Below are positions 3,145 to 29,475 of a stretch of DNA of 46,675 nt, in pieces. The DNA is from a virus: positions 1 to 46,675 of the IMG/VR virus record IMGVR_UViG_3300006224_000015; one strand, written 5' to 3'. Within the stretch, counting starts at the first letter, position 1. The number at the start of each line of letters is the position of its first letter. The translations under genes were made by a program, and so were the position numbers. Below the pieces are notes generated by a model that saw nothing but the letters and a program-made list of their open reading frames with translations, was not told where the DNA came from and ran no database searches.

Positions 3145-3147
3145 GTC

Positions 3148-4828: not shown

Positions 4829-4833
4829 TCCCC

Positions 4834-10954: not shown

Positions 10955-11659
10955 ATGGCGACAGGCGCAGAGAAGGAAGCGAAGGCCGCTGCGGCGGAGG
11001 CCGCGAAACAGGCCGTCGTCCAGGGGCGCCAGCGCCTCGCCGGGCTCGGCGAGTCCGCGACTGCGTTCCCCCAGCGCCGGCTGCGCTCCGCCGGCGACAT
11101 GGCCCGCTACGCGATCGGCGGTTTCATGGACGATCCGACGAAGCCACGCCCGGGCGGCGGAGGCAGCGGCACCCCCGCTCCGCGGCCCGGCCCGGTCGGC
11201 ACCGGCGGCGGCGGCGGCGTGACGCGCCCGGCCCCCGCCCTCCAAGTCCCCCGCCCGATCATGGCCGGTGGCAAGAAGGCGATGCCGGGCGGTCGCGGCG
11301 CCCCCGGCGGTTCCCGCCCTCGCCCGCGCGTCCCGCAGGTGGGCGGCAAGAAGATCGCGCCCGGTGCCCGTCCGATGGGCGGCACCACTCGCCCCAACCA
11401 GCCCCGACCCCGCAGCGGCGCCCTCACCACCCCATCCGGCAACTCCGTCCGCCTCATCGGCGGGAAGAAGGCCGCCGGGACGTTCAAGAAGGGCAAGGTG
11501 ACGGGCATCGTCTCCACCAAGCTCCCGGTCGTCCGGGGCGGCAAGAAGGTTGCCGGGCGAAGCAAGACGATCACCGGCCGCGTGACGAAGCCGACGCCGA
11601 TGGTGAAGAAGCCCACAGCGAAGGCAGGCGGCAGCAGCCAGAAGAAGCGCGCGGAGTAG
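10955..11659 (+). CDS. Basic, disordered Gly/Pro/Lys-rich protein with GGKK motifs
   Basis: The 234-aa product starts with an Ala/Glu/Lys helix, then turns into a low-complexity Gly/Pro/Arg/Lys chain. A motif recurs four times: AGGKKAMPG, VGGKKIAPG, IGGKKAAGT and RGGKKVAGR. The C-terminal third is very basic. No fold is recognised. Placement between portal and the large internal-protein genes suggests a virion-internal DNA-binding or linker protein. The composition recalls histone-tail-like or packaging proteins only in a general way. Confidence 0.65.
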   Translation: MATGAEKEAKAAAAEAAKQAVVQGRQRLAGLGESATAFPQRRLRSAGDMARYAIGGFMDDPTKPRPGGGGSGTPAPRPGPVGTGGGGGVTRPAPALQVPRPIMAGGKKAMPGGRGAPGGSRPRPRVPQVGGKKIAPGARPMGGTTRPNQPRPRSGALTTPSGNSVRLIGGKKAAGTFKKGKVTGIVSTKLPVVRGGKKVAGRSKTITGRVTKPTPMVKKPTAKAGGSSQKKRAE

Positions 11660-11662
11660 GCC

Positions 11663-14600
11663 ATGCCGCGCAGCGGTTCGTTCTCACCCTCGCTCGATCC
11701 GTTCGGGTCAGGATCAGGAGGGCTCGGCCGCTACGACCTGGGCGGCGGGGATGTCATGTCCCTTGCCGCCCAGGAGCTCTATGCCGTGGGCGTCGCGTGG
11801 GCGAACGGCACGGCGAGCGACGACGAGTACCTCGCAGCGATCCAGAAGGTGCTCGACATGACCACGCCCGGCACCGCCGAGCGGACCCGCTATGAGAACC
11901 AGCTCCGCGACACGAAGTACAGCATCGATCGCAACAAGCTCGTCCGCGTCGTCAACAACGCCGTGACCGCGACCGCGCGGGTGCGCGGGATGGAGCAGCT
12001 CCTCGCGTTCGAGCAGGCGCACTTGGGCACGATGACCGAGACGGACAGCGAGGCATACCGCGAGCAGCAGGACCGCATCGCCGGCGTGCGCGGCGACATC
12101 CGCAAGGAGCACTACGCCGAGGCGGTCCGCAAGTACAACGCCGGCAAGCTCTCCACGTCCGCGCTCGTGGCGCTCGTCCAGTCCTACATCAAGGCCAGCG
12201 CCGGCGACCCCGACCTCGATGAGTGGCGGGATGCCCTGACCGACCTGCGCCAGCGCCAGAAGGACGAGTCGATCACCACCGCCTATCAGGACTACCAGCA
12301 CAACCGCCTGGCGGGGGCGGACCTCATCGCGGAGCTCGACCGCCAGATGGCCGGGCTCGACCCGGGCAGCGCCAAGTACAAGGAGCTCGCCCGCCAGCGC
12401 GAGGATCTCGCCGAGCAGGTGCGCCGGGACGAGCAGACCAAGGCCGATGCCGTCATGTACGGCAAGTACCAGCAGGGCAAGATCAAGGACGAGGAATGGG
12501 TCGCCTACCTGACGAAGCGATACGAGTCCGCCCCGGCCGGGTCGAGCGAGCGCGTGGAGGCGGGCAACCGGCTCAAGGAGTACATCTTCTCGCTCTCGGA
12601 GGACAAGCTCCGCTACGACTTGCAGACCGGCCAGCCGGGCGCCCGCGAGAAGCTGGTGGCCCTGTATCGCGCCTACCAGGCCGACACGGTGCGCGGCTCG
12701 GAGCGATGGCGCGGCCTCGATCTCGCCATCCGCAGCCTGCGCGCCGGCGGCGGGGCGGGCGGCGGCGGCGGCGGGGGCGGTGGCGGCGGCGGCGGGAGCA
12801 GCACGGGCACCTTGGGCGGCGGCAAGCTGATCGTTCCGCTGGCGGATCTCGAGGACGTGCTCGTGGCGATCAAGGAGGAGGGCGGCGAGGTCCCGCCGGG
12901 CTTCGAGGGCCTGTTCCGCATCGACCCGCGCGACAGCACGGATGCGAAGTGGTGGGACAACAACTACCGCTCGATGCGCGAGGCGCTCCAAGACGGCTCC
13001 TCGACGTGGTTCTACTACGCCCCCAACGGGACGGCGTATCAGGTGCCGTTCACGCCAGCCACGATGAGCCAGTTCGGGCAGGCGAACCTCGCCTACATGC
13101 AGTACGGGGCAGCGCAGGCCGACAGCCCGAAGGACATGCAGAAGTGGATCGGCAAGATCATCACGGCCGCCGACCAGTTGCAGACCCTCGAGGGCTCGAT
13201 GTACATGGACATCGTGGACGCCGTGTGGGACGACTTGACGAAGGCGAAGCAGGTCGCGCTCGCCTCGGGTCAGTACGGCGACTACCTGCGGACGGTGGCC
13301 CAGCAGGAGGCGTTCCTGCGCGACGTGCTCCAAGTTCCCGATGGCGCCCCGCTCGACACCGCCCTGGCCGGCAACCCGTTCCTCACCGCCTCCCAGCTCA
13401 CGTCGCTGGCCGAGAAGATCAACGGCCTCGCGCCCTACGACCCTGACCCGCGCGACGGCAACGCCACGGGGGACCGCTTCCTGGCGCTCGTCGGGACGCC
13501 GGCCCTTGTCGAGCGCGACGCCGACGGCGACGGGATCGTGGAGGACATCAGGCTCAACCCGCTCTACGCCTACGAGACGCAGGACAGCAACGGCTTCATC
13601 GGCATCCAGCCCGTCGATCCCGCCGAGGTCACGGAGGACCCCACGACGGGGACGCTGGTGCCGAGCTACATGACGAGTCATGTGCAGGCCGTGGTCAGCG
13701 TCTACGGCATCGCCAAGACCGTCTGGCAGCCGACGACGGACACGCTCGAGCTCGCGGTATACGCGGACACCGGCCCCCGTCCGCCAGCGGCATCAACCTC
13801 CGGTCCGGCGGGCCACCGCTTCACGGGCGCCGCACCCTCCACCCCGCAGGGCTGGGAGCCTTCCGTCGGGGCGCTCAAGGACGCCACGACCGGCCAGGCA
13901 GCCTCGTTGCCGGTCAAGTCGTTCGTCACCGTGGAGCGCAGCATCACGGGACCGACGAGCGTGGTGTGGGTCAGCTTCGACGGCGCGACGTGGATGCGGA
14001 TGCCGACCGCCGGCGCCCTCGCACCCCGGCTGGTGGTGCCGTCGGGCGTGACCATGAGCGAAGGGAAGTGGCAGCACGACGGCGCGGATGTCACACCCGA
14101 GGAGCTGCTGCGCTTGGTGCATTGGTGGGGCGAGGGACGTGGCGAGGTCGGCCACGGGACCTACGGCCTCAACCTCACTTGGCGCAGCGGTGCGATCCGC
14201 AACGCGGCGGGCGAGATCACGGGCTACCACCCGATCGACGCCCGCCCCGACTACATGATCGACGCCGACGAGATCGAACGGATGCGCCCCGAGAACAGGC
14301 GCACCGCACCCCCGACCGACGCCCAGCTCGCCGCCCGCGACCTGGCAGCTCCCTCCGCCCGACAGGCCGCGGCCACGAGGGAGGAGCTCGACCCGACGAT
14401 CGCCCGCATGGAGGCTGACCTGCGCCGCCGCCTTCTCGACGGCGACCTGATGCCCGTCGCGCTGCGCGCGTTCCGGGCAGAGGTTCCGCCCGAGTACGTT
14501 GACGCACCCGAGCGGACGCTCCGGGCGGACATCCGCTACCGGGCGAAGCCCCGCGCGACGTTCGATATGCCGCGCAAGACGCTCCGCGACATCCTCAATC

Positions 14601-14872
14601 GTCCGCGCACGACGCTGACGCCGATGCTGCAACCGACGCTGGTGGACACGCTGCCGGCGATCAAGGCGGGCACCGCGTCGTCGCGGCTGCCGGCCCCCAC
14701 GCCTCGCAAGCCCGATGCCCAGGTGCGGCCGGCGACGCCACCCCCGACCCTGCGCCCGGTCGTGCAGGTCGGTCAGGGGAGCGGCGACATCGAGTACCGT
14801 CCGGCGCCGACGCCCAAGCCCAAGCCCAAGCCTGACGAGCGGCTCATCCGCGGGCCGGTGACGGTCGAGTGA
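11663..14872 (+). CDS. Large helical-repeat virion protein (1069 aa)
   Basis: Residues ~35-355 contain about five tandem helical units of 55-60 residues. Each has a Y--G-l---E-l--l pattern followed by a PGS--Y-E-like turn, for example KYQQGKIKDEEWVAYLTKRY then APAGSSERVEAGNRLKEYIF. A poly-Gly run follows (~363-377). The second half mixes helices with a DADGDGIVED loop (from ~residue 619) that resembles a calcium-binding loop, then beta-rich and Pro-rich parts. It ends in a PKPKPKPD tail. No enzyme motif is seen. Its stop overlaps the GTG of the giant gene. Candidate internal or ejected virion protein. Confidence 0.7.
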   Translation: MPRSGSFSPSLDPFGSGSGGLGRYDLGGGDVMSLAAQELYAVGVAWANGTASDDEYLAAIQKVLDMTTPGTAERTRYENQLRDTKYSIDRNKLVRVVNNAVTATARVRGMEQLLAFEQAHLGTMTETDSEAYREQQDRIAGVRGDIRKEHYAEAVRKYNAGKLSTSALVALVQSYIKASAGDPDLDEWRDALTDLRQRQKDESITTAYQDYQHNRLAGADLIAELDRQMAGLDPGSAKYKELARQREDLAEQVRRDEQTKADAVMYGKYQQGKIKDEEWVAYLTKRYESAPAGSSERVEAGNRLKEYIFSLSEDKLRYDLQTGQPGAREKLVALYRAYQADTVRGSERWRGLDLAIRSLRAGGGAGGGGGGGGGGGGGSSTGTLGGGKLIVPLADLEDVLVAIKEEGGEVPPGFEGLFRIDPRDSTDAKWWDNNYRSMREALQDGSSTWFYYAPNGTAYQVPFTPATMSQFGQANLAYMQYGAAQADSPKDMQKWIGKIITAADQLQTLEGSMYMDIVDAVWDDLTKAKQVALASGQYGDYLRTVAQQEAFLRDVLQVPDGAPLDTALAGNPFLTASQLTSLAEKINGLAPYDPDPRDGNATGDRFLALVGTPALVERDADGDGIVEDIRLNPLYAYETQDSNGFIGIQPVDPAEVTEDPTTGTLVPSYMTSHVQAVVSVYGIAKTVWQPTTDTLELAVYADTGPRPPAASTSGPAGHRFTGAAPSTPQGWEPSVGALKDATTGQAASLPVKSFVTVERSITGPTSVVWVSFDGATWMRMPTAGALAPRLVVPSGVTMSEGKWQHDGADVTPEELLRLVHWWGEGRGEVGHGTYGLNLTWRSGAIRNAAGEITGYHPIDARPDYMIDADEIERMRPENRRTAPPTDAQLAARDLAAPSARQAAATREELDPTIARMEADLRRRLLDGDLMPVALRAFRAEVPPEYVDAPERTLRADIRYRAKPRATFDMPRKTLRDILNRPRTTLTPMLQPTLVDTLPAIKAGTASSRLPAPTPRKPDAQVRPATPPPTLRPVVQVGQGSGDIEYRPAPTPKPKPKPDERLIRGPVTVE
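12748..12797 (+). repeat. Poly-Gly coding tract
   Basis: A GGC/GGG-rich run encodes about 15 consecutive or near-consecutive glycines separating the helical repeats from the rest of the 1069-aa protein. Such runs are slippage-prone and serve as flexible linkers. The frame is intact here. Confidence 0.8.
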
Positions 14873-17800
14873 CAGACGACTTCTTCGAGCAGTACCGCGG
14901 CGCCTGGCAGCCGCGTCCGTCCACGGCGCGGGCGGCGTCGTTGCTCGATGGCATGTGGGCACGGCGCTACGCCCCCTACACCCCGCCCTCGAGCGTCACG
15001 CCGGCCCGCCAGCAGCAGGCGCTGGGGATCGGGACCGCGCTCGGCCGGCGCCCGCCCCTGTCGAGCCGGGACACCGCCGCGAGCGGACCGCAGGATGTCG
15101 GGCGCGCTGACCCGCCGTACCGTTTCAGCGTCAACCTCCTCGGCGGCGTCATGGAGAGTGCGCCCGGCCAGGCGTTCCTCGGCACGCCCGGCGCCCAGCG
15201 CGGCGGCTCGGTGCAGCTCGGCCATCTTCTCGGCGGGTCCGGCGAGCAGTCGGGACCGTGGACGACGCCGGTGGCGACCGCGCCGGTCAACTTCCAGAAC
15301 TTCATCACCTACGCCCGCGAGGCCCAGCTGTCGCTGATCACGTCGGCGCTCGGCCACAACTACCAGCAGCCCACCGACCCCTACGGGCGCCCCGCCGGGC
15401 CGACCAACGAGGACTGGATCGGGCAGAACGTCGTGCAGGGCGACTTCGCCGGCGTGCTGGACAACATCATCGACGGCATCGCTACCGCCGGCGATGCCAT
15501 CAACGCCCCGTTCGTGGCCTTGCAGGACGGCATCCGGTCGTGGGACTCGTGGAACCGCGGCCAGGCGGTGCGCGATCTCGTTGCGGAGGGCAGCACGCCG
15601 GGCACGATCATCGCCCGCGTCTCCTCGCTCCTCGACCAGCGCCGGTTCAGCATGGCCGGGATCATCGAGAAGGCGGAGCTCGAGGGCCGCGACACCCTCT
15701 CGATGATGGCGGAGCTGTGGGACATGCCCCGCGATGTCGTGGAGCAGATCGCCGCCAACCCGAACATGAGCGACGAGCAGCTCGGCGCGCTCGTCCACAA
15801 CCTGCCGTTCAGCACCGATCCGGTCGTGAGCACCCTGACGGAGCTGACCTATACGCTGGCGCCGATGCTCCTCGGCGCCGCGGAGCTGCGCGCGGCCAGC
15901 CTGGCGGCCCGGGGGCTGGGCGGTGGTCGTGGCGCGATCGTGTCCGGCGCCCTCGGCCCGCGTGGCGCCATCGGGTCGAACGTGGCTGGCTTCGCACGCG
16001 CGTCGGGCCTGACGGGCACCGGGCTCGGGCGGGCGACGACGCGGGTGACGAGCGCCGTGCAGTCCACGGGCTCGTGGTCGATGCAGAAGGCGTGGCGGTT
16101 CTACTCGGGCAAGCCGTTCCAAGCGTTCGGGCTGGCGACCGGCGTGACCCCCCGGGGCGTGGCGCTGGGCGGCGCCATCCGGGCCGGCGAGTGGATGCTC
16201 AAGCAGACCGCGGAGCTGACCGGCAACGACGAGGCGGTGCGGATGCTCGATGAGTGGCTGTGGGAGACGCCGCTCTCGACCAACCCCGGCCTGATGCTCG
16301 TGGACGGGTTCTCCATCGCGGCGACCCGGCTGACCCGGCAGAGTCTCGCCGAAGCGCGGGGCGCCATCGGGGGCGCCGCCGGGCGCGTGCGCCGGACCCC
16401 GCCGCCCATCGAGATCCCCATCGAGGTCAAGGTCGCCGGCCTGCCCGACGGCACGATCACGGTCGGGCGCGACACCGCCGCCCGCCTGGCTGCCATCGAT
16501 GAGCTCGACATGGCGCCGTTCTTCCGGGTCACGGACGAGCTCGGCTGGGAGCGCGGCTGGGTGGAGGCGTCCTACGGACCCGACGCTCCGAACCTCGCCC
16601 AACGCGACCTGGCGAACGGGCTCCTGCACGTCGCCGCGGAGGTCGTGCGCGACGCCCACGAGGCCGTCGCCGCCCGGATCGCGGGCGCGACGATGGTGGA
16701 GCGCGCCGAGGCGTTCTGGACCCGCTACGGCGACGAGGCCACGAAGCTCCTCACCGATGCGCTGGGGGGCTCCACGGAGGCGATCGCCACGCTGCGGAAG
16801 GCGATCGTGTCGGAGTTCCACACCCGGGCGCGCTCGATCGACGCCTCCGATCTCGGCGCCGAGGTCGCCGGGTTCGTCGGTCCCTACCAGCCGGCCAGCT
16901 CGTTCCGCAACTTCGGCATGTGGATCAGGATGAGCAAGCTGGCCCAGGAGCTCCACAGCGACGCCTCGCTCGTCGTGCCGGCCCTGCGCGAAGATGTCAA
17001 CGCATCGTTCGTGACGGCGTTCATCAAGCGCCTCGAAACCGCCTACACCGACCCGAAGGCGCTCGTGGATGCCGCGGACTTGCAGATGCTGGTGGACTAC
17101 TTCCCCGGCGTGGTCCGCCTCGAGCGGCGCCTGCGCCCCAACAGCCGCACCGTGCCGCGGATCACGCAGAAGTCGCTGGTCAGGACCCTCAACGCCGCGC
17201 TCGAGCATCAGGAGGCGCAGGCGTTCCGCGACGCGGAGCCGCGCACGTTCGCGGCGCCCATCGCGCCCGAGAAGGTCGGCGATCTCAACGCCATCAGCAA
17301 GGCGCTCAACATCCCGGTCGCGGTCGTCAAGCGGCTCGCCCGGGTCATGGAGGAGGGACCGCCCGAGACGCCGCTGCCCGACGGGCTGGCGCAGCTGGCC
17401 CATCGCCTGTTCGGCAACCAGCTCGAGGAGATCCGCCGGTCCCCGCAGATGTTCTGGCAGAAGCTCGCCGAGTGGGCGGAGACGCAGACGGCGGGCGCGG
17501 TGGAGCGCGGGGCGGCGATCGCCCAGCTCGACCGGCTCGACCGTGTGCTCAAGCGCCGGTTCACGGACGCCGACGCCGGGCGCGACCGGGTGGCGATCGA
17601 GCAGGTCAAGCAGAACATCACCGAGGTCCCCAGCCGTGACGCGCTCGGCGCGAACGTGCGGATGCAGGACTTCGCCGACCAGTCGCGCGCGGCGATCGTG
17701 GAGTTCATCGACCAGGTGGAGCTGTGGGAGCAGGACGCGATCACCCCCGCCGTGTCCCGGCTCGCAGAGCGCGGCGGACGGCTGGTGCTCGAGGCGGACG

Positions 17801-20800
17801 GCCTGCCGGCCACCGACATCGCCACGTTGCAGGTGATCGCCCGCCGGCTGTCGCTGGCCGAGGGCCTCACCGCGGAGCAGGTCGCCATGCTGGCGGACGC
17901 CGACATGCACCCGCTCCTCAAGGTCGAAGCGATGCGCGAGGCGACCGCCGGCGGCGGGATCACGCTGTCGAACCGGGAGCGCATGGTGCTCGACCGGGCG
18001 CCCACCCTCGAGGGCGCCTACCGCAGCCTGGTCGATCAGGCCCGCGGCGAGGACGTGCCGGTCACGCAGGAGGTCATCGCCGAGATCACGCAGCAGGCCG
18101 CGGACCACGCCGACGCCCTGACCAGCCTGCGCCAGCAGCTCCACGGACTCGCCGACGTGGTGGCCCGCGATCCGCGCCAGCCCGTCACGCCCGAGGTCCA
18201 CGGGTTCTTCGAGCGCGCCAGGCGGCTCGGCCAGCGCACGGCCGCGCGGGGCGCCATCGTCGTCCCCAACTGGCGCTCCGTCGGCCTGACGCGCACCGGG
18301 GTCCACCGCGCGCTGGTGGCGTCCGACGTGCAGACGCAGCGCGTCGGCCTGACCCGCACGGCGCAGGAGACGGCGCGGGTCGCCGAGGAGGCCGAGCGCC
18401 GGCTGCGCGACTTCACGGAGCGCCAGAAGCCGAAGTACGACTACGAGGACTTCGATTGGGCGCCTGTCGATGAGCGGCGCTACACCCTCAAGGGGCAGGC
18501 GCAGTCCGTGTCACGGATGCTCAACGAGCAGACCGGCGAGGCGCACAGCTTCCGCAAGCTGATGCCCGGCACCGACGAGAACCCCGCCACGACCCCCCGC
18601 TGGGTGGTCGAGCGCGGTACGCTGCGCGAGCGCCCGGCGGAGGCCGCGCCCGCCGCGGCGCCTGAACCTGAACCAGCCCGAGCTGTGAGCGGAGAGGTCA
18701 TCGAGCCCCCGCGTGATGCGCTGGGGCCCGAGGCCGAAGCCGCCCTGCGGGCCTCCGAAGCCACGCAACAGGCCGAGCGCGACCGGGTGTTCCTCGAGGA
18801 GGTCGCTGACCCGCGCGGCCAGCTGTCCGAGGAAGCGCGCTTGCTCCTCGACATCGAGTGGCATCAGGACGGCGGTGCGGTCGCCGACGCCGACCGCCTG
18901 TACGACGAGGGGCACCAGCGGTACGGGCTCGAGGCCCTCGAGGCAGCCGAGAAGGAGCTCGCCGCGTGGCACGAAGCGCACCCAGGCTGGACCGCGGAGG
19001 GCGGACCCACGCCCGCCGAGCCGCCCGCGCCGCCGGCGCCGCGCCTCGATCCCGCCGAGCAGGCCCGCCGCGCCCGTGACGAGGCTGCCGCCGCTGCCGA
19101 GCGCGAGCGCACGCTGGCGGCGGACGCGGCCCGGACGATGTACCAGTCGCAGGCGCTGGCGCTCCCCGGCGCCTACCTGCGGCTCCCCTCCGACGAGGGC
19201 GTCCGCATCCGCTGGACAGCGCCCGACGGCTCGCTGCACGTCGGCGACGGAGCCGACCTGCCGGCGGCGCTCGAGAGCGCCCAGCAGAAGTGGCGCGAGT
19301 GGGTCGGGGCGGGGCGGCTCGCCAACGACGCCTCGCTGCGCCAGCCCCAGCAGCCGGGCGACCGCTCCGCCGAGGCCAAGGCCGCGCGTCGTGGCGAGGT
19401 CCCGCCCGAGCCCGAGCCCGGCCTGTTCGATGAGGACCCGCAGGCGATCCAGAACGACCTGATCGACGCGGCGCCGTCCAAGACCGAGATCGACGCCTTC
19501 CTCGAGACGCTGGACAAGAACCAGAAGGGCGCCCAGGAGTACGCCAACAGGCCGCGCGAGCTCGACAAGCTGGTCAACAACGCGCAGCGCGAGCTCGACA
19601 CCAAGACCGGCGCCAACGAGACGACGCGGCGCCGGATGAAGCGCGAGCTCGATGCGGCCCTTGCCCGCCGCCGACAGGTGGACATGGCCCAGGTCGAGAA
19701 GATGGGCAAGGCCGCCCGGGTCATCGAGGCGATGCGCTGGGCGATCGGGTCGGGACGCTGGGAGTCGGGCCTAATCGCGGCGCTCTCGCGGATGGACAAC
19801 GAGCGGACGATCGGCTGGATCTACAAGGCGATCGAGGACACCAAGGGCACGTCCGACATGGGCGTCATCAGCCGCTGGTTCCTCGAGCAGCGTGACGCCA
19901 TCATCGCCGACGCGAAGCGGCTGCCCGACGCGGAGCCCGCGCCGGAAGCGGCGCGCCCGGCCCGCGCCGAGGGCAGGCCGACCTATCTCGGCGAGAAGGC
20001 GGAGCTCGAGGTAGGGGATGCGGTCGTCATCGAGGGGACGAAGCACCGGGTCCAGCGGATCGATGACGACGGCACGATCCACGTCGCGCTCGCCGGCAGC
20101 AACTGGAAGCAGCGCACCATCGCCACCAGCTTCGGTGCCGAGACGACCCTGACGTGGGACTCCACCGCCGCCGTCTGGCGCCCGACGACGGTGGCGGCGG
20201 TCACGGAGGCCGCGGCGCTCGAGGCACTCCCGCCGCAGACGCTCGACGTGCTCGACCCGCAGACCGGCGCCCGGATCCCGGCGCAGGTCCGGCTGGTCGA
20301 TGCCGATGGCCGGCTCGTCGCCAGCGGCGACACGGCCTACCCGCCGAACCTCCAACCGCGCTCGCGCGACGCCCGCGGCGCGTCGGAGGAGCAGATCCTT
20401 CGGATCGCCCAGGCGCCCGACCCGAAGCGGCTGCTGGGCACCGCGGAGACGCGCGACGGGATGCCGATCGTGACCACCGACGGCGCCGTGTTGAGCGGCA
20501 ACGGTCGGGTCCACGGCGTCCGGCAGGCCACGGACGAGGCGTTCGCCGAGGCACGGGCGGCGACGATCGAGGAGGCCCGTCGGCTGGGCTTCGATGAGAA
20601 CGCGCTGGACGCGGCGGAGCGCATGAAGCGCCCGATGCTCGTCCGCGAGGTCGATCTGCCGTACACGGATCAGGTGCGCTGGGCGTGGCAGCTCAACGAC
20701 CTGCCGGTCGGGGACCTGGCGATCGCGCTTGCCGGGGCCGTGGAGCCAGCCGAGCTCGCCCGGCTCCGCATCGTCAGCGGCGAGGCGCTGGACGACGCGC

Positions 20801-23800
20801 TGCGGGCCGACAAGAACGCCGAGGCGGTGACGCGCATCCTCGCCGACCATCTGCCGCCGGACACCGTGGGCAAGTACACCGACAGCAAGGTCGGCCTGTC
20901 GGACAGCGGCCTCGCGCTCGTCAAGGGCGCCCTGCTGGCGCGCGTGCTGGGCGCCCACGACCGGGCCCGCCCCACCTACGAGTCCGCCCGCGCGGTCGTG
21001 CTCGCCATCATCGAGTCGGCGGACGACGACATCAAGCGGATCGAGAACGGGCTGGGCGCCTCGCTGCCCGAGCTGTTCCGCATCACGAAGCTGGCCGAGG
21101 AGGGCTACGCCACCGCGCAGAACGTCGCGCCGCTGGGTGAGGACATCGCCAAGGCGGTCTGGTACATCTTGCAGAAGCGCCGGGCCGACGCGACGTTCGC
21201 CGACATCAAGGCCGACCTGACGGCGGTGGGCGGCCTGTTCGATGACCAGGCGGTCGAGCAGGTCGAGCTCCAACCGCTGACCGCGATCCAGAACCACCTT
21301 GCGCTGGTGCTCGCCAGCGCGGACTCGGTTGGCGAGGTCCGCGCCTTCCTCGCCGGCGTGGCCGACGCGCTCGATCCCGTCGGCGCCGCCGCCGAGGGCT
21401 TCGGGCTGGTCGAGGTCACGTCGATCGGCGAGGGCTATCTCGGAGCGCTCAACGAGGGCGTGCGGCGGTACAACGAGGTCCGGTCCGCCAAGATCGAGCG
21501 CCGTGGCGTCGGTGCCATCGACCCCTTCCCCTCGCCCGAGGCGCCGTTCGACACGCCGATCAGCCCGCCGCGCGTCACGGCGGACGGCATCGACGCGCCG
21601 CCGGTGCTCAAGAGCCGGCCCGTTGCGCCCGAGGACGTGGCCGGGGAGATCGAGGCGCGCATGGGCCCGGAGGGCGTGGCGACCGTGGAGTCGCTCGCCG
21701 ATCTGGACAACCTGCCGCCCGGGTACGAGCCGCGGTTCACCGACCCGCACGATCAGGCGGTCTACGACTTCCTGGCGACCGGGGCGGCGAACGTGGCGCT
21801 CGAGCTCAAGTCGGCGATGGACGCCTTCTGGCCGGTCGGGTTGAGCGGTCGGTCCTCCGCGACGACCCGGAAGGGCGCCACCACCCGCGCCCAGCGCGCA
21901 GGCTTCGACAGCGTGGTGGAGCGTCTCAACCGGGGCGAGGAGGTCCCGCCGGCGGAGCTGTTCATCGCGCGGTACTTCGCGGGCGACGCCTTCGCGCCGT
22001 TCCGCAAGACCCCCGACGGGCGCTACAACCCGCGGTTCGTGGAGACGGGCAACGCCGCCGCCGGCGATCTCAACATGATCATCCAGCTCGGCGTCGAGGG
22101 CAGGGGCCGGACCCGTCCGCCGCTGGTCGAGGGGACGCCCGTGGCGCGGCAGCCTGCCGAGACGCCCGAGGAGTGGGTGGCGTTCAACGAGCAGTTCGGA
22201 CGCCGGGTGCTCACGCCCGACGAGGCCAACGCCTTCGAGTCCGACCGGGACATCCCCACGATGAAGCTCATCACCAAGGACGGCACCCTGATCATGGTCG
22301 ATCCGGCGGCCTTCGAGCAGGTTCATGGACGCCCGCCGTCGGTCATGCCGAAGGGCACGGCTCGTCCCGTGGTGCGCGTTCCGCGCGAGCAGCGCCCGAT
22401 CGACGCCGACCAGCTCGAGGCCGACACCGGCATCCCCGAGGCGGAGCTCGACGCCGCCCGGGCGACGGAGGCCGCCGCGATCGCACAGTCCAGCGCGCAC
22501 CAGACGGTCGTGAGCCAGAACCCGTCGCTCGATCGGCAGGTCCGGCGCGCCACCGGAGCGCCGCCCGTGGCGCAGACTGTCCGCACCGTGCTCGAGTTCA
22601 ACAAGCCCGACGACGCCAAGCTCGCCGAGCGCCTGCGCGACGAGGCGAACGCCGCCCGCGCCCGCGCCGACGCCGCGCAGAAGTCACTCGACACCTTCGA
22701 GGCCAACCCGCCCGAGCCGTCCTACGTCGATCGCCCGTCCGCCTTCCCCGACCCCGAGCTGCGCGACATGTGGTATCGCCTGATGCGGTCGTGGGACTCG
22801 CTCGAGCAGGTCATGGCCGAGCGCGGCATCGCCGGCGCCGGCGAGATCGAGCCGAAGTCGCTGGGCGAAGTGCTCGACGCGGTGGAGTCGATCGACCGCG
22901 GCCACTTCGAGCCGCTCACGCGCGACGAGGCCCTGCGCCTGCGGACCTACCTGATGACGCTCGCCAACGCCGAGCTCGAGGGCGCGCTCAAGCAGGCCGA
23001 CCTGGCTGGCGCGCAGCGCCGCCTCGCGGGGCCGGTCGCGTCGGAGGCGGACCTGCCCGAGATCAACGAGCGGGCGGTCGAGATCCTCCAAGCCGTCGAG
23101 TCTGCTGTCGTGGACGACCCGACCCTGCCGCCCATGCCCGAGTTCACCGGCACCCGCTACCGCCTGACGACACCGCGCACGCGGTCCCGCGGCGTGGGTG
23201 CCGAGCGGCTGTCGCCGCGCCTGGTGCTGACCGACCGCATGGCCTCCGCCCGGCGGATGGTGGGGCCGGACGGCGACCGCGTGGTGCCGCAGCTGGCGGA
23301 GGAGCTGGCGTCGGGGCGGATGCTCACGGCGGAGGCGCGCATCGCCCGGGGCCGGGTGGTCAACCTGCTGGACCGGGTGTTCGGGCCGCGCGAGGAGCGC
23401 GAACTCCGCCAGCAGGCGCGCCAGCACTTCGAGGACGGCTTGCTCGAGTGGGTCGATCCCGACGTGGACGACGCCAAGCTGGTGCAGAAGGTGGCGGTGC
23501 TCGCCTACCGCTACTGGATCGATGACATGGCGACGAAGAAGGTGTGGGGCAACTTCAACGTCTACCGGCGCATCGACCTGATGGGGCCCGAGACGCTCAA
23601 CATGCACTTCGAGCGGGCGGTGCGCGACATCTACAAGCTGGGCCACGAGTCCGAGGTCACGTTCCCCGGCTGGTATGGCCGGATGACCGAGGCCGGGGCG
23701 ACGCCGTTCGAGCTGTGGCGCAAGGCCGACAACCGGATCCGCAACTGGGCACGCGACAACCACCCGACGCTCTCGCAGTCGGTCGAGGCGCTCTACGGCG

Positions 23801-25143
23801 GGCCGATCGGGCGCCGGGCGGCGACCGCCGGCCACAACGCCCTGATCTACACCATCGTCCGGTTCTTCGCCGACTTCCGCTGGCTGGGCCTCGAGTACAT
23901 CGAGCCGATGATGCTCGCCACCGGGCGCTCCGGGCCGGTCGTGACCGCCTCCGCGGTCCGTGGGCCCTTCGGCGTGGGTCGGGCGCTCACGGCGCCGATC
24001 CGGGCGGCTGGTGGGGTCAAGGGCGCCGAGCCGGCGCCGGCGGCGTTCGGGCGCCAGCAGATGCGGGAGCAGATCCGCCACTTCGCCTGGTGGTCGGCGC
24101 AGTTCAACGACTTCGAGCAGGCCACCGCCGGGCGCTGGCGCTACCTCCTCTACTCGTTGCAGAACGAGCAGCGGCGTCCGTTCGCCGAGGCCGTCCACTC
24201 GATGCTCGACACCGACCCGCAGGTGAAGCGGCTGATGGACGACCTGGGCGTCCGCAACGTGGACGAGTTCATCGAGACGCTCGAGCGCGATTGGAACACG
24301 CTCGAGGCGTCCGAGGTCAAGCTGACCGGCGACGAGGCGGCTCGGGTGTTCTCGCCGTGGCTCCGCAAGGGGATCATCAGCGAGGCCGAGTACAAGGCGA
24401 TGGTCGGCTCGGGGAGCTACATCACCCACCCGGCCATCGAGGCGGAGCTCGCCCGGGTGGCCGGCGACCCGGTGGCCGAGGCGCTCGTCGGGCGCTTGCA
24501 GGCCATCAACCAAGGGCTGTGGTCCGATCTCGTGCAGGTCTACTTCGGCCAGACGAACCGGAGCAACCTCCAACGGGTGCTCAACAACCCGTTCCTGTAC
24601 TGGCCGATCAGCTACCAGCTCAAGGCGACCCGCTGGATGCTGCGGATCATGACCGACCAGGCGTTCGGGATCGACAGCCGGGCGCTCCCCGGCCAGGCGT
24701 TGCAGAAGGTGTGGGACGAGCACAAGCGCCGGCTCCTCGAGGACCCGGAGTACCGCGCCAAGCTGGGCCAGCACGCCACCCTGATCTTCATCGCCGGGAT
24801 GCTCATGCCGATCCTGCCGACCGACATCGGCGTCTCGATGTCGCCGTGGACCCGGATGCGGGTGGACGAGAACTACACCCGCCCGTTCGGCATCTTCGGG
24901 GTCGGTCCGTGGTACACCATCCCGCTCGTCCAGCGCTTCCTGACCGAAGAAGGGAAGCCCGGCGGGGTGTTCGCGCCAGGCGAGGCGCTGGCGCCGATCG
25001 GCATCGAGGCGAAGCGGCTGCTGGGCGTCCAGAGCTTCCAGAGGGACCGCGAGGCGCAGTCGGAGATCGAGGCCGAGCGCCGGCGGATCGGCGTCGAGGA
25101 GGCGCAGCTGTCGCTCGAGGATATTGACGAGCGGCTCCCGTAG
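14869..25143 (+). CDS. Giant multidomain virion/polyvalent protein with DdrB/ParB-like domain (3424 aa)
   Basis: GTG 14869 overlaps the previous stop (GTGA). The N-terminal ~1100 residues are helical with Gly/Ala-rich hydrophobic stretches (around 320-350). An SH3-like segment starts at ~1705 (GDAVVIEGTKHRVQRIDDDG). Residues ~1785-2175 match the DdrB-like ParB-superfamily domain of phage polyvalent proteins: NLQPRSRDARGASEEQI (from 1827), LSGNGRVHGVRQA (1875-1887) and a later LVREVDLPYTDQ. A Pro/Ala/Glu-rich segment (~1265-1410) separates it from the N-terminal part. The C-terminal ~700 residues are helical with a hydrophobic segment at ~3304-3324. Placement between portal and scaffold suggests an ejected protein. 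I see no RNA-polymerase or peptidase motifs, so the enzymatic role is unknown. Confidence 0.8.
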   Translation: MTDDFFEQYRGAWQPRPSTARAASLLDGMWARRYAPYTPPSSVTPARQQQALGIGTALGRRPPLSSRDTAASGPQDVGRADPPYRFSVNLLGGVMESAPGQAFLGTPGAQRGGSVQLGHLLGGSGEQSGPWTTPVATAPVNFQNFITYAREAQLSLITSALGHNYQQPTDPYGRPAGPTNEDWIGQNVVQGDFAGVLDNIIDGIATAGDAINAPFVALQDGIRSWDSWNRGQAVRDLVAEGSTPGTIIARVSSLLDQRRFSMAGIIEKAELEGRDTLSMMAELWDMPRDVVEQIAANPNMSDEQLGALVHNLPFSTDPVVSTLTELTYTLAPMLLGAAELRAASLAARGLGGGRGAIVSGALGPRGAIGSNVAGFARASGLTGTGLGRATTRVTSAVQSTGSWSMQKAWRFYSGKPFQAFGLATGVTPRGVALGGAIRAGEWMLKQTAELTGNDEAVRMLDEWLWETPLSTNPGLMLVDGFSIAATRLTRQSLAEARGAIGGAAGRVRRTPPPIEIPIEVKVAGLPDGTITVGRDTAARLAAIDELDMAPFFRVTDELGWERGWVEASYGPDAPNLAQRDLANGLLHVAAEVVRDAHEAVAARIAGATMVERAEAFWTRYGDEATKLLTDALGGSTEAIATLRKAIVSEFHTRARSIDASDLGAEVAGFVGPYQPASSFRNFGMWIRMSKLAQELHSDASLVVPALREDVNASFVTAFIKRLETAYTDPKALVDAADLQMLVDYFPGVVRLERRLRPNSRTVPRITQKSLVRTLNAALEHQEAQAFRDAEPRTFAAPIAPEKVGDLNAISKALNIPVAVVKRLARVMEEGPPETPLPDGLAQLAHRLFGNQLEEIRRSPQMFWQKLAEWAETQTAGAVERGAAIAQLDRLDRVLKRRFTDADAGRDRVAIEQVKQNITEVPSRDALGANVRMQDFADQSRAAIVEFIDQVELWEQDAITPAVSRLAERGGRLVLEADGLPATDIATLQVIARRLSLAEGLTAEQVAMLADADMHPLLKVEAMREATAGGGITLSNRERMVLDRAPTLEGAYRSLVDQARGEDVPVTQEVIAEITQQAADHADALTSLRQQLHGLADVVARDPRQPVTPEVHGFFERARRLGQRTAARGAIVVPNWRSVGLTRTGVHRALVASDVQTQRVGLTRTAQETARVAEEAERRLRDFTERQKPKYDYEDFDWAPVDERRYTLKGQAQSVSRMLNEQTGEAHSFRKLMPGTDENPATTPRWVVERGTLRERPAEAAPAAAPEPEPARAVSGEVIEPPRDALGPEAEAALRASEATQQAERDRVFLEEVADPRGQLSEEARLLLDIEWHQDGGAVADADRLYDEGHQRYGLEALEAAEKELAAWHEAHPGWTAEGGPTPAEPPAPPAPRLDPAEQARRARDEAAAAAERERTLAADAARTMYQSQALALPGAYLRLPSDEGVRIRWTAPDGSLHVGDGADLPAALESAQQKWREWVGAGRLANDASLRQPQQPGDRSAEAKAARRGEVPPEPEPGLFDEDPQAIQNDLIDAAPSKTEIDAFLETLDKNQKGAQEYANRPRELDKLVNNAQRELDTKTGANETTRRRMKRELDAALARRRQVDMAQVEKMGKAARVIEAMRWAIGSGRWESGLIAALSRMDNERTIGWIYKAIEDTKGTSDMGVISRWFLEQRDAIIADAKRLPDAEPAPEAARPARAEGRPTYLGEKAELEVGDAVVIEGTKHRVQRIDDDGTIHVALAGSNWKQRTIATSFGAETTLTWDSTAAVWRPTTVAAVTEAAALEALPPQTLDVLDPQTGARIPAQVRLVDADGRLVASGDTAYPPNLQPRSRDARGASEEQILRIAQAPDPKRLLGTAETRDGMPIVTTDGAVLSGNGRVHGVRQATDEAFAEARAATIEEARRLGFDENALDAAERMKRPMLVREVDLPYTDQVRWAWQLNDLPVGDLAIALAGAVEPAELARLRIVSGEALDDALRADKNAEAVTRILADHLPPDTVGKYTDSKVGLSDSGLALVKGALLARVLGAHDRARPTYESARAVVLAIIESADDDIKRIENGLGASLPELFRITKLAEEGYATAQNVAPLGEDIAKAVWYILQKRRADATFADIKADLTAVGGLFDDQAVEQVELQPLTAIQNHLALVLASADSVGEVRAFLAGVADALDPVGAAAEGFGLVEVTSIGEGYLGALNEGVRRYNEVRSAKIERRGVGAIDPFPSPEAPFDTPISPPRVTADGIDAPPVLKSRPVAPEDVAGEIEARMGPEGVATVESLADLDNLPPGYEPRFTDPHDQAVYDFLATGAANVALELKSAMDAFWPVGLSGRSSATTRKGATTRAQRAGFDSVVERLNRGEEVPPAELFIARYFAGDAFAPFRKTPDGRYNPRFVETGNAAAGDLNMIIQLGVEGRGRTRPPLVEGTPVARQPAETPEEWVAFNEQFGRRVLTPDEANAFESDRDIPTMKLITKDGTLIMVDPAAFEQVHGRPPSVMPKGTARPVVRVPREQRPIDADQLEADTGIPEAELDAARATEAAAIAQSSAHQTVVSQNPSLDRQVRRATGAPPVAQTVRTVLEFNKPDDAKLAERLRDEANAARARADAAQKSLDTFEANPPEPSYVDRPSAFPDPELRDMWYRLMRSWDSLEQVMAERGIAGAGEIEPKSLGEVLDAVESIDRGHFEPLTRDEALRLRTYLMTLANAELEGALKQADLAGAQRRLAGPVASEADLPEINERAVEILQAVESAVVDDPTLPPMPEFTGTRYRLTTPRTRSRGVGAERLSPRLVLTDRMASARRMVGPDGDRVVPQLAEELASGRMLTAEARIARGRVVNLLDRVFGPREERELRQQARQHFEDGLLEWVDPDVDDAKLVQKVAVLAYRYWIDDMATKKVWGNFNVYRRIDLMGPETLNMHFERAVRDIYKLGHESEVTFPGWYGRMTEAGATPFELWRKADNRIRNWARDNHPTLSQSVEALYGGPIGRRAATAGHNALIYTIVRFFADFRWLGLEYIEPMMLATGRSGPVVTASAVRGPFGVGRALTAPIRAAGGVKGAEPAPAAFGRQQMREQIRHFAWWSAQFNDFEQATAGRWRYLLYSLQNEQRRPFAEAVHSMLDTDPQVKRLMDDLGVRNVDEFIETLERDWNTLEASEVKLTGDEAARVFSPWLRKGIISEAEYKAMVGSGSYITHPAIEAELARVAGDPVAEALVGRLQAINQGLWSDLVQVYFGQTNRSNLQRVLNNPFLYWPISYQLKATRWMLRIMTDQAFGIDSRALPGQALQKVWDEHKRRLLEDPEYRAKLGQHATLIFIAGMLMPILPTDIGVSMSPWTRMRVDENYTRPFGIFGVGPWYTIPLVQRFLTEEGKPGGVFAPGEALAPIGIEAKRLLGVQSFQRDREAQSEIEAERRRIGVEEAQLSLEDIDERLP

Positions 25144-25160: not shown

Positions 25161-25838
25161 ATGGCAACGGAAGTCGCTACGCCGACACCCGCACCGGCAC
25201 TCGAGCCGGCGGCTGACGCCCCTCCTGCGGAACAGGGCGAGGCCGTCGCGCAGAACCAGCCTGCGGACACCGACGCGCAAGCGGAGCCCGATCGCCGACT
25301 GGCACAGGCCGAGTACACCAGAGCCCAGCAGGCGTTCGCGCTTGCCAAGGCGGAGCTCGGACTGGACCCCAAAGCCACCCGAGAGGAGTTCCTCGAGGCC
25401 GTTCGCGCGCTCAAGTTGGCGCCGAAGCCGGCTTCCGAAGATGACTCCCCCGACGAGGACCCCCGAGTCGCCGAGTACCGACAGCGGGCGTGGGACGCGC
25501 AGTTCAAGATGCTGGCAGCGGTCTACCCCGACTACGCCGGACCCGCGATCGAGTACGTCAACCTCGCGCGCACGTCGGACGATCCCGAGGAGCTCGTCAG
25601 CGCCTTCGCGGCGCTGGTCGAGGAGCTCCGCGGCGAACGCCCGGCTGCGCCCGCCCCCGTGGCGGAGGAGGAGGGCGAGGAACCCGTCGATGTCGGGCTG
25701 CCAGGCGACGACTTGGCACCTTCCGGTAGCTCTCGGACTTCCTCAACGGAGTCCGCGCCCTACCGGCGTCGTGAGTCTGCGGTCGTGGGTGCCGTCCGCG
25801 GCATCTTCGCAAGCGCGGGACTGCCTCCCCGTCAGTAG
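25161..25838 (+). CDS. Putative scaffolding protein
   Basis: The 225-aa product precedes the capsid gene. It has an Ala/Pro/Glu-rich disordered N-terminus, a helical middle (LAQAEYTRAQQAFALAKAEL; REEFLEAVRALKLAPK; a YPDYAGPAIEYVNLAR segment), an acidic stretch and a basic C-terminal end (YRRRESAVVGAVRG). Acidic, helical, low-complexity proteins directly upstream of the major capsid gene are typically scaffolds, which guide capsid assembly through a basic C-terminal contact and then leave. No protease domain is seen. A candidate promoter lies just upstream. Confidence 0.65.
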   Translation: MATEVATPTPAPALEPAADAPPAEQGEAVAQNQPADTDAQAEPDRRLAQAEYTRAQQAFALAKAELGLDPKATREEFLEAVRALKLAPKPASEDDSPDEDPRVAEYRQRAWDAQFKMLAAVYPDYAGPAIEYVNLARTSDDPEELVSAFAALVEELRGERPAAPAPVAEEEGEEPVDVGLPGDDLAPSGSSRTSSTESAPYRRRESAVVGAVRGIFASAGLPPRQ

Positions 25839-25878: not shown

Positions 25879-27009
25879 ATGGCTGTCATCACCGGACAGC
25901 GTTTCACCTACTCGGATTCCGTCAACGAAGCGATCGACATCAGCTCGGCGCTCGACAAGCTCAACCCTGTCGATACGCCGCTGCTGTTGCGGATCGGCAA
26001 GGACTCGCTGCGCGACGCCTGCACGAGCGTCAAGCACGAGTGGCTCGAGGACGACGTGCGCGGCACGACCTCGCTCGTCACCAACAACCCGCTCGCCTCG
26101 GATGGCGTCACGCTCAACGTCACGACCGGCGACGGCGTGAAGTTCCGCAAGTGGGACATCCTGCTTCTCGAGGACGAGCTCGTCCGCGTCACGGCTGTCT
26201 CCACCGACGCGCTCACGATCGTCCGCGCCATCGGCGGCTCCACCGCCGCTTCCCACGCGCAGAACGTCGTCGTGACCCTCATCGCACCGGCTCTCCCCCA
26301 GGGCGAGGATCTGCTGGGCGCACGGACGACCACCAAGTCGGGCCTGTTCAACAACACGCAGATCTTCGAGGAAGAAGTCCGCGTCTCCAAGACGATGCAG
26401 GCCACCAAGAAGTACACCCAGCAGAACGATCCCGAGTACCACATCGGCAACCAGCTCGAGATCATCGGGATCAACATGGAGCGCGCCCTCCTGTTCGGGC
26501 GCAAGGTCACGGCTGCCGCCAGCATCGGCGGCCAGATGGACGGCATCCGCGTCCGCCTCTCCACGAACGTCTACAACAAGAGCTCGGCTGCGCTCACCCA
26601 GGCGCATCTCGAGGACGCGATGCAGGACATCTGGAACGCCGGCGCGCGCCCCAGCCTGATCGTCAGCAACGCCACGCAGGTCCGCCGCATCGACACCTTC
26701 CTCGACGGCTACCGCGAGACGGACTACAACGACGAGGTGCTCGGCGCGATGGTCCGGCGCTACCGGACGCACTTCGGTACGGTGGACATCCTCCTCGACC
26801 GGCACATGCCGACCAGCGAGCTCCTGATCCTTGACGAGAACAAGATCGGGTTCGGTCCGTTGCAGGGCCGGGCGCTCTCCACGACCAAGCTCCCGCCCGT
26901 CAGCAAGGAGTACGACACCTGGCAGATCTCGGGTGAGTACACCAGCGAGACTCGCCTCGAGAAGTCGCACGCCCGCATCTACGGGCTCGCCACGACCGGC
27001 CTGTTCTAG
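25879..27009 (+). CDS. Major capsid protein, SU10/DUF5309-like
   Basis: The 376-aa product begins VITGQRFTYSDSVNEAIDIS and continues LDKLNPVDTPLLLRIGKDSL with KHEWLEDDVRG. This is the N-terminal pattern of the SU10-type major capsid family (HK97 fold): D-S-aL--LNP-dTPLl, then HEW--D-L. The rest has the expected mixed helix/strand build, with QATKKYTQQNDPEYHIGNQL and a C-terminal WQISGEYTSETRLEKSHARI. It forms the capsid shell; related phages with this family are often short-tailed. GGAGGG at 25864-25869 is the ribosome site. This fixes the window as a virion module. Confidence 0.88.
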   Translation: MAVITGQRFTYSDSVNEAIDISSALDKLNPVDTPLLLRIGKDSLRDACTSVKHEWLEDDVRGTTSLVTNNPLASDGVTLNVTTGDGVKFRKWDILLLEDELVRVTAVSTDALTIVRAIGGSTAASHAQNVVVTLIAPALPQGEDLLGARTTTKSGLFNNTQIFEEEVRVSKTMQATKKYTQQNDPEYHIGNQLEIIGINMERALLFGRKVTAAASIGGQMDGIRVRLSTNVYNKSSAALTQAHLEDAMQDIWNAGARPSLIVSNATQVRRIDTFLDGYRETDYNDEVLGAMVRRYRTHFGTVDILLDRHMPTSELLILDENKIGFGPLQGRALSTTKLPPVSKEYDTWQISGEYTSETRLEKSHARIYGLATTGLF

Positions 27010-27485: not shown

Positions 27486-27566
27486 CGTTCCGCCCCTGTC
27501 CCGGTCATCATGGGGGTCGCCGGCAACGACCGGGAGCCGGCGCCCCCCACCACAGGAGGAACGACG

Positions 27567-27887
27567 ATGGCGATGCTCCGGTTGCGTCACCGCGAGATCG
27601 GTGGCCTGATCTATGGGCCCGAGTTCGACAGCGCGATCAAGTTCGGCGTCCGTGGCGGGATGCCCGAGTTCGAGGCCCTGGTGGACGAGGACGACCCCCT
27701 CCTCCCGGGGCTGCTCAACAGCGAGCCGGTCGAAGTCATCAACGAGGAAGCGCTCGCGCGCATCTACGTCTGCCCCGACTGCGAGGCGGAGCTCAAGAGC
27801 CGCGCCGGCCTCAAGGCGCACATGGGCGCCAAGCATGACTCTCACGTCGCCTCCCTCGAGGAAGCGGAGCCAGCTGCGGAGGAGTAA
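27567..27887 (+). CDS. C2H2 zinc-finger-like protein in head operon
   Basis: AGGAGGA precedes ATG 27567. The 106-aa product has an acidic/hydrophobic N-terminal half and one zinc finger, YVCPDCEAELKSRAGLKAHM with C69, C72, H85 and H90 (C-X2-C-X12-H-X4-H). A Glu/Ala tail follows. Short proteins with a single C2H2-like finger occur near capsid genes of several phages. They could bind DNA or hold a head-completion fold by zinc. No diagnostic head-tail motif is seen. An ~80-base gap with no gene lies upstream. Confidence 0.7.
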   Translation: MAMLRLRHREIGGLIYGPEFDSAIKFGVRGGMPEFEALVDEDDPLLPGLLNSEPVEVINEEALARIYVCPDCEAELKSRAGLKAHMGAKHDSHVASLEEAEPAAEE

Positions 27888-27890
27888 GGC

Positions 27891-28553
27891 ATGGCCTTCT
27901 CGACGCTCGACGCGCTGCGGACCAAGGCCGGTGGCCTCAACGACGAGCTCGGCCTGACCAGCGACTCCGACAACAGCTTCGGGACCACGGCGCAGCGCAA
28001 CGGCTTCACCAGCAAGGCGATCGCCGGCCTGTGGCCGGACATGGGGCGGCTCCTGCGGGAGACGCTCGTGACCGTGCAGGACCAGGTGGACTACACCCTC
28101 ACCAGCCTGTACGACGTGGAGCGTATTCACGTCATCGACCCGGACACCGGAACGCTGATCAGCGATCGGGTCAAGTCGTGGGAGCTGATGGTGGACGAGG
28201 CCGCCGACCCAGCGGTCTACCGCCTCCGCCTCCCGCCCATGACGGCGGGCCTCACGCTCCGCTGCATCGGCTACGCGCCGTACATCGTCCCCTCCTCGGG
28301 AGGCGCGTCGTGCGACCTGCCGCCGCGGCTCGAGTGGATCGTGTTCGCCGGCGCGCGCTACTTCGCCTACCGCTTCATGGCGAGCCGGTTCGTCAACTTC
28401 GAGCGCTTCCAGAACGAGAACCGCAGCAACGCCGTGACCGCCGCGGACCTCATCGAGTTCATGCGTGACGCCAAGCGGGAGTACGACCGCGGGCGCAGCG
28501 AGAACCGGCGGTCCCTGACCGGCGCGACACGGGCGATCATGGCGGCCAAGTGA
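27891..28553 (+). CDS. Head-tail connector/adaptor-like protein
   Basis: The 220-aa product has an N-terminal helical part (LDALRTKAGGLNDELGLTSD), a beta part (YTLTSLYDVERIHVIDPDTG), and a C-terminal helix-rich part (LEWIVFAGARYFAYRFMASR). The helix-strand-helix order, size and location right after the head genes resemble head-to-tail adaptor proteins that bind under the portal. There is no specific motif to confirm it. Confidence 0.55.
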   Translation: MAFSTLDALRTKAGGLNDELGLTSDSDNSFGTTAQRNGFTSKAIAGLWPDMGRLLRETLVTVQDQVDYTLTSLYDVERIHVIDPDTGTLISDRVKSWELMVDEAADPAVYRLRLPPMTAGLTLRCIGYAPYIVPSSGGASCDLPPRLEWIVFAGARYFAYRFMASRFVNFERFQNENRSNAVTAADLIEFMRDAKREYDRGRSENRRSLTGATRAIMAAK

Positions 28554-28554
28554 C

Positions 28555-29475
28555 ATGGCGGACCGCTACGACTTCCCGATGGCCTACCGGGGGGTCACGT
28601 TCAACGAGCACCGCACGACCGCCGGCGCGCTCGACATCACCAAGGAGTCCGACACCATCCGGGTCAACCTGCTCGACTTCGGGCGGATGCAGCAGCGCGA
28701 CCAGCGCGAGCCGCTCCACGTCCTGCCGGGCGGCGACTTGGGCGATGCGACGTTCGCCTTCCGCTACGTCAGCATCGCCGGCATGGTCAAGGGCTCCACG
28801 GGCGCCAAGCTCTCGGACCGCGAGGGCGCCGTCCTGACGGCGTTCCACGTCGAGGAGGCCCAGCGCGACTCGCCGAGCACCGAGGGCGTGACGGCCTTCA
28901 CCTACTACGACGTGACGGAAGTGACTGGCCTACCTGGCGCGCAGGATCTCGGCGGCGGCATCTACGCGGTCAAGGAACAGCTCCTTGGGCGGCCGGCGGG
29001 ATACCCGGTGATCACGGGCCGGCGGTCGGGCGGCGACTCCGCCCCCTTCGCGGCCGAGCTCGTCTGCCCGGACACCCGCCGCTACATCGACACGCAGAGC
29101 ACCGTGACGCTCAACAGCGGCAACGGGTTCAGCGCGGCGTGCCCCAACTGGAACAGCTCCCTCGGCGTCGCCACGTCCCCGCTCGTGACGATCAACATGA
29201 CCGGCGCCGGCGCCAGCAACTTCACCTTCGACATCACCAACGACTCGGCCTCGGCGCTCGTGCTCTCGCTGACCGGCACCGTCAACACCGATGCCATCAC
29301 GATCGACACGGCGACCGGGATCATCCGCAAGAACGGCGTCCTGGCTGCCTCGCTGCGGACCTCGGCGTTGCTCTCCCTGTATGCCTACATCGCCGGCGGC
29401 GGAGGCACGGCCAGCGCGACCAACACGACGAACGTGGGCTCCGTCGTGCTGACCTACCGCCAGGCTCGAGCGTGA
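28555..29475 (+). CDS. Tail protein with Dit-like layout
   Basis: The 306-aa product starts one base after the upstream stop. The N-terminal half (YDFPMAYRGVTFNEHRTTAG, then VNLLDFGRMQQRDQREPLHV) has strand-rich order typical of distal-tail/baseplate proteins. The C-terminal part is Thr/Asn/Ser-rich and beta-like (SNFTFDITNDSASALVLSLT). In siphophages, Dit-type proteins follow the tape-measure gene, which is not seen before this gene. It could instead be a short-tail ring protein. Call is tentative. Confidence 0.45.
   Translation: MADRYDFPMAYRGVTFNEHRTTAGALDITKESDTIRVNLLDFGRMQQRDQREPLHVLPGGDLGDATFAFRYVSIAGMVKGSTGAKLSDREGAVLTAFHVEEAQRDSPSTEGVTAFTYYDVTEVTGLPGAQDLGGGIYAVKEQLLGRPAGYPVITGRRSGGDSAPFAAELVCPDTRRYIDTQSTVTLNSGNGFSAACPNWNSSLGVATSPLVTINMTGAGASNFTFDITNDSASALVLSLTGTVNTDAITIDTATGIIRKNGVLAASLRTSALLSLYAYIAGGGGTASATNTTNVGSVVLTYRQARA

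Follow-up and report, generated by a model that had tools for sequence, protein, structure and literature searches.

The window, by which we mean the whole stretch of DNA analysed, is an IMG/VR record of an uncultured phage, classed as linear, with 46,675 bases and a GC content of about 70%. A single plus-strand gene at 14869-25143 encodes a protein of 3424 residues (the giant) and takes up 22% of the window, as the original prediction stated. We regard this open reading frame as real. It starts with GTG, is open across 3424 codons without an internal stop and has a GC content by codon position of 0.73/0.50/0.95, as expected of a GC-rich coding frame. The start shares four bases (GTGA) with the stop of the preceding gene, and homologues of 3169 and 3367 residues are encoded on two related IMG/VR contigs, G002 and G004. 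Both strings that had been quoted from the protein, NLQPRSRDARG and LSGNGRVHGVRQA, are present in its translation.

The giant gene is surrounded by genes for virion morphogenesis. A probable large terminase subunit is encoded at 1462-3144; it shows a Walker-type motif by eye and no family match, and its relatives precede portal genes. The portal protein (9001-10953, plus strand) matches SPP1_portal with an E value of 4.8e-10. Directly 3' of the portal gene follows a gene for a very basic Gly/Pro/Lys/Arg protein of 234 residues with GGKKA-type repeats (10955-11659, plus strand), which has relatives after the portal in contigs L007-L010 and might bind packaged DNA. The next gene (11663-14872, plus strand) encodes a 1069-residue protein with a poly-Gly linker. 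Relatives of it lie 5' of the giant in L007-L010, L027 and L075, and L026 and L028 carry a gene of similar size; it is probably a conserved partner of the giant and a second internal protein. Downstream of the giant we found a scaffold-like acidic protein of 225 residues (25161-25838, plus strand), assigned by its position and with relatives in G002 and G004, and the major capsid protein (25879-27009, plus strand; SU10_MCP, E 5.4e-61). The giant had been described as encoded between portal and scaffold. This position is right, but the 234- and 1069-residue genes intervene after the portal. The order portal, gene of 760-1165 residues, giant, gene of about 185-225 residues, capsid is found in several contigs; the close relatives keep the virion-morphogenesis context, and four more distant relatives keep it in part.

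On the 3' side of the capsid gene the order is 135-residue protein, 125-residue protein, 220-residue adaptor-like protein, 306-residue protein, 376-residue protein, 1628-residue tailspike and amidase. The 220-residue protein (27891-28553, plus strand) is a probable head-tail adaptor with a weak SU10_adaptor match (E 0.009, below the cut-off). No tail-tube gene or separate tape-measure gene was seen in the window, so that a short tail is likely, and the phage is probably short-tailed with an SU10-type capsid. A weak Dit-type match of the 306-residue protein (28555-29475) makes a longer tail possible.

The ddrB-ParB domain was the sole domain found in a Pfam search of the giant. A search of NCBIfam gave no match, and in PHROGs four unnamed families matched, all of them inside the ParB-homology region (phrog_5143 with E 3e-16). 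The core of the domain, PF18763, spans residues 1800-1928 (20266-20652, plus strand) with an E value of 3.1e-21 and a score of 76.2 bits, well above the curated cut-off of 27.6, which bears out the proposed DdrB-like ParB-superfamily pattern. The domain is also kept in the G002 and G004 giants. Combining a 29-sequence alignment, an HMM, AlphaFold and Foldseek, we delimited a larger module of a ParB domain and an all-helical tail at residues 1789-2250 (20233-21618, plus strand). A domain-region profile hit an open reading frame in 44/44 loci, mostly across its full length of about 360 positions; as these loci had been fetched with the same region, the matches tell how far the module extends and not how common it is.

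The 29-sequence alignment has nine invariant columns, and the window giant keeps all nine (S1819, R1831, G1864, V1874, G1877, N1878, R1880, P1922 and L1924). Three of these, G1877, N1878 and R1880, invariant in 29/29 sequences, belong to an SGNGR motif at residues 1876-1880 (20494-20508, plus strand). A further column holds tyrosine in 27 of the 29 sequences; here the window giant has Ala1895 and G004 has methionine, while G002 has tyrosine. In the published description of the DdrB-like family, an extra helix holds a conserved tyrosine that is perhaps important for activity (PMC5512222). The column of Ala1895 presumably corresponds to this tyrosine, and R1880 of the GNGR stretch to the active-site-type arginine of the superfamily described in the same study.

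AlphaFold modelled residues 1784-2252 with a pLDDT of 83.8 and a pTM of 0.80. When this model was compared with solved structures using Foldseek, ranks 1-6 were all ParB/Noc proteins, with E values of 0.02-0.5 and none below 0.001. The best solved fold was ParB-N 5k5d (E 0.022, probability 0.96), and one of the nearest ParB/Noc structures is CTP/CDP-bound. ParB proteins ordinarily have a relation to CTP. Among viral models, the best matches were DdrB-like and polyvalent proteins with E values of about 4e-13; named DdrB-like phage proteins reached E values down to 5e-13. The confident model and its nearest folds thus indicate that the module, as predicted, consists of a ParB domain and a long tail of helices. 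Sequence matches of the 29-sequence module alignment to the PDB were weak and chance-like.

We wondered what the remaining part of the giant might represent. When viral contigs were scanned, neither the whole giant nor the capsid protein gave a match; the close relatives G002 (50.5 kb) and G004 (25.4 kb) were reached via the portal protein. Their giants of 3169 and 3367 residues, the former read across the contig ends by a 7-base overlap (an assumed joint that the open frame supports), keep the whole architecture. Identity to the window giant is about 33-51% for G002 and 24-31% for G004 in three conserved blocks at roughly residues 80-1250, 1790-2390 and 2516-3420, which are separated by linkers of poor conservation. 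Accordingly delimited, the N-terminal backbone comprises residues 1-1180 (14869-18408; identity to G002 37%, to G004 24-30%) and the C-terminal backbone residues 2541-3424 (22489-25140; 39% and 31%). A variable linker of low conservation precedes the module (residues 1181-1788, 18409-20232; three-way identity 6-15%, most of it without a BLAST match), and a second one follows it (residues 2251-2540, 21619-22488; three-way identity 3-14%); all four segments lie on the plus strand.

The original prediction that the other ~3000 residues match nothing recognisable holds for Pfam, NCBIfam and PHROGs, but relatives exist in uncultured phages. The backbone gave no match in any profile searched, and a limited literature search turned up no account of a backbone of this kind. 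AlphaFold modelled the C-terminal 888 residues as largely alpha-helical at low confidence (pLDDT 37.4), so that any role of the backbone is guesswork. Sequence matches of an eight-sequence C-terminal alignment to the PDB were weak and chance-like. The C-terminal region showed no homology to LPD38: hhalign gave a probability of 0.1% (against an alignment of two LPD38 proteins only), and a family search was negative too. A hydrophobicity scan found one or two hydrophobic stretches per giant, and one in the window giant; with so few, we do not argue for membrane insertion.

Starting from C-terminal alignments, we reached five viral contigs, of which L026, L027 and L028 lie beyond the close relatives, and two metagenome-bin contigs, L075 named Vicinamibacterales and L076 named Chloroflexi, bin names that may not be the phage hosts. 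The last ~230 residues of the giant are recognisable in L026, L027, L028, L075 and L076. The C-terminal region common to the eight sequences has 26 invariant columns, including WPISYQ and the K, A and W of a near-invariant L[YF]WPISYQ[IL]KA.KW. The WPISYQ signature (residues 3245-3250, 24601-24618, plus strand) is invariant in 8/8 aligned sequences, which partly reflects the search because some loci were found by pattern scans from the motif stretch ([YF]WPISYQ). The tblastn and HMM matches extend 130-450 residues around the motif, well beyond the pattern.

Four of these giants are without a ddrB match (L026, 1891 residues; L027, 2310; L028, 2768; L075, 1856). L075, the clearest of these, shows the gene order of the window, with terminase, portal, 1069-like protein, giant, capsid, 135-residue protein, adaptor-like protein, Dit-like protein and 376-residue protein, and with identities of 37% for the portal, 41% for the capsid, 61% for the 135-residue protein and 45% for the 376-residue protein. 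The C-terminal part of its giant matches with E values of 3e-56 and 7e-19, and the N-terminal part gives weak collinear HMM matches with a summed E value of 2.6e-7. Between these ends L075 has about 575 residues versus about 1900 in the window giant, so that about 1300 residues of the middle are missing. Homology to the N-terminal backbone was not significant in L026-L028; beyond the close relatives it was seen, weakly, only in L075. As related giants share the backbone without DdrB, the DdrB module is, judged from these comparisons, probably an exchangeable cargo on a conserved backbone.

Other giants carry other middles. L027 and L028 contain HEWTH and HEFAH, respectively, and match the unnamed family phrog_9880 with E values of 8e-18 and 5e-13; the HExxH stretch of L027 gave tblastn matches to proteins of 40 phage records. 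We read this block, from its sequence, as a putative zincin-type peptidase. MPTase-PolyVal matched neither in the window nor in the relatives, so that this assignment draws on the motif and phrog_9880, and for L027 also on tblastn. In L028 (2279-10582), a stretch near GGCLIFSVALQKKYGG...DHVAVQLEDGTIIDSRG additionally looks papain-type peptidase-like by eye. In L026 (5117-10789), the C-terminal backbone is interrupted by about 500 residues. A block of L026 that resembled an ADP-ribosyltransferase by eye was unmatched in Pfam and in solved structures and is not claimed. Two further loci, L064 and L006, encode DdrB giants (open frames of 3694 and 3855 residues) with the known LPD38 domain and not with this backbone. 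A DdrB giant is also encoded by a cultivable laboratory phage, Pseudoalteromonas phage vB_Pun_Y3.

Several known systems resemble the giant in part. P1 DdrB and the DdrB-like polyvalent proteins (PMC5512222) share with it the PF18763 domain family and the late or virion gene context, and mass spectrometry placed P1 DdrB in the head (PMC9024508). However, P1 DdrB has about 109 kDa and reportedly terminates in a peptidase domain, whereas the window giant is three times longer, lacks an HExxH motif and has a backbone unmatched by the profiles searched. N4 gp50, the virion RNA polymerase, is an ejected beads-on-a-string protein of about 3500 residues in which long N- and C-terminal regions flank an enzyme-type domain (PMC12633501). 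Its cargo is an RNA polymerase, unlike that of the giant, in which no N4-type RNA polymerase domain was matched in Pfam, NCBIfam or PHROGs, and the comparison concerns the way of working and not the backbone sequence. The podovirus JC1 likewise has one huge virion protein, gp69 of the Bcep22-like DarB type, confirmed by proteomics, with 4515 residues and 22% of the genome; it is a DarB-like antirestriction protein, and a DdrB homologue was not reported there (PMC9144972). Phage SU10, whose capsid type the window phage shares, ejects gp20-24, internal proteins lost at genome release (PMC9509320). These are five separate proteins versus one giant here, likened by function and not by sequence. 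Most of the ParB-homology region recurs in smaller proteins: epsilon15 gp16-like proteins of Alcaligenes phage Piluca (L005) and Acinetobacter phage TPWB-05 (L004) share homology with the giant across residues 1801-2200 (E 3e-35 and 7e-35). They have 949-956 residues, lack the giant backbone and are encoded after the capsid gene. The L005 protein is annotated as epsilon15 gp16-like and adjoins other epsilon15-like internal proteins; L004 has the same gene order, and its protein gave a lytic transglycosylase match.

An ejected internal protein is indicated by the order of the genes, by the DdrB family and by the size of the giant. We consider it likely that the giant is an internal protein of the polyvalent type, ejected like N4 vRNAP or the P1 Dar proteins, that its phage is probably short-tailed with a capsid of SU10 type, and that it carries a probably exchangeable ParB cargo. 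The polyvalent, ejected-protein reading proposed originally is the best fit. Like polyvalent proteins, the giant is encoded beside virion genes. Such proteins also carry two or more effector domains; the window giant has one profile match, LPD38 and polyvalent peptidase domains were not found in it, and other cargo occurs in the relatives, on which the term "polyvalent" therefore rests. Virion location, ejection and all biochemical activity of the giant are what we infer. The conserved ends, the N-terminal ~1200 and the C-terminal ~880 residues, would serve packaging in the procapsid near the portal and then passage into the cell, and the middle, joined through the variable linkers, would carry the DdrB-type ParB module as cargo. 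At infection the giant would exit the head together with the DNA or ahead of it. In the cytoplasm the ParB-like module might then act on the incoming genome by binding nucleotides and DNA, serving as a regulator of early infection or, as in phage P1, as part of anti-restriction. The cargo might work through nucleotide-dependent DNA binding on the entering genome, through a part in anti-restriction or through DNA cleavage.

Might the giant instead serve morphogenesis? A packaged giant could shape or stabilise the head or load internal proteins, with the ParB module acting in assembly, for example by binding DNA or the portal, and not necessarily in the host. The location of the gene between portal and scaffold-like genes is in line with this, and so are reports that P1 DdrB helps the addition of DarB to the capsid (PMC9024508), that it is non-essential, being dispensable in the laboratory (PMC10695390), and that P1 DarA/Hdf function in head assembly (PMC12810830). 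Yet L075 has no DdrB module although its capsid type and gene order are the same, which suits a cargo better, and we think a morphogenesis factor unlikely. A nuclease effector that cuts the DNA of the host, a role suggested for DdrB-like domains, is quite improbable. An NTP-regulated DNase activity was proposed for the family (PMC5512222) and R1880, the superfamily-type arginine, is kept in 29/29 sequences. However, the nearest solved folds are ParB/Noc proteins, one of them CTP/CDP-bound, and not nucleases, and the giant presumably lacks the tyrosine with a suggested role in activity. The nuclease or host-protection function originally considered is not directly supported here; the near-universal family tyrosine is alanine, though the superfamily arginine is kept.

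The great length of the giant, its largely alpha-helical prediction (at low confidence), the weak Dit-type match at 28555-29475 and the lack of another tape-measure candidate in the window would also suit a tape-measure protein, from a phage with a long tail, in which a ParB-like domain is present by chance. A tape-measure gene would be expected among the tail genes, after the tail tube and before Dit. Instead, every relative with both flanks seen has its giant gene in the interval from portal to capsid, few genes separate capsid from tailspike, and Pfam, NCBIfam and PHROGs gave no tape-measure family match. As the capsid is of SU10 type, the adaptor weakly so, and SU10 is short-tailed, we hold this explanation to be very improbable.

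Returning to the internal ejection protein, a bolder version of it seems improbable as a whole, namely that these giants are modular delivery chassis in which the middle is swapped (ParB-like, zincin-type and others) and that in this phage the cargo is a nucleotide-gated DNA clamp of ParB type, loading onto the genome as it enters. If true, the ends of the chassis would route the giant through the portal while the cargo varies within the lineage. Giant ejected proteins are hard to explain because thousands of residues pass a narrow channel and then refold. The separation, by sequence, of conserved ends from an exchangeable middle offers candidate packaging or export regions and a short signature. 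The finding also places a DdrB module on a backbone unmatched by the profiles searched.

Further genes of the window showed minor features. The 125-residue protein (27510-27887, plus strand), which has a relative in G002, contains a C2H2-like finger, CPDCEAELKSRAGLKAHMGAKH, with weak Pfam zf-C2H2 matches below the cut-off, and the 1628-residue tailspike (30445-35331, plus strand) has two separate pectate-lyase-type stretches. A 399-residue protein (4696-5895, plus strand) gave a weak alginate-lyase match (E 4e-4, below the cut-off). Just 5' of the portal gene, a 511-residue protein (7460-8995, plus strand) consists of repeats of about 22 residues (LAGSISPAGALTKRTKRS and similar).
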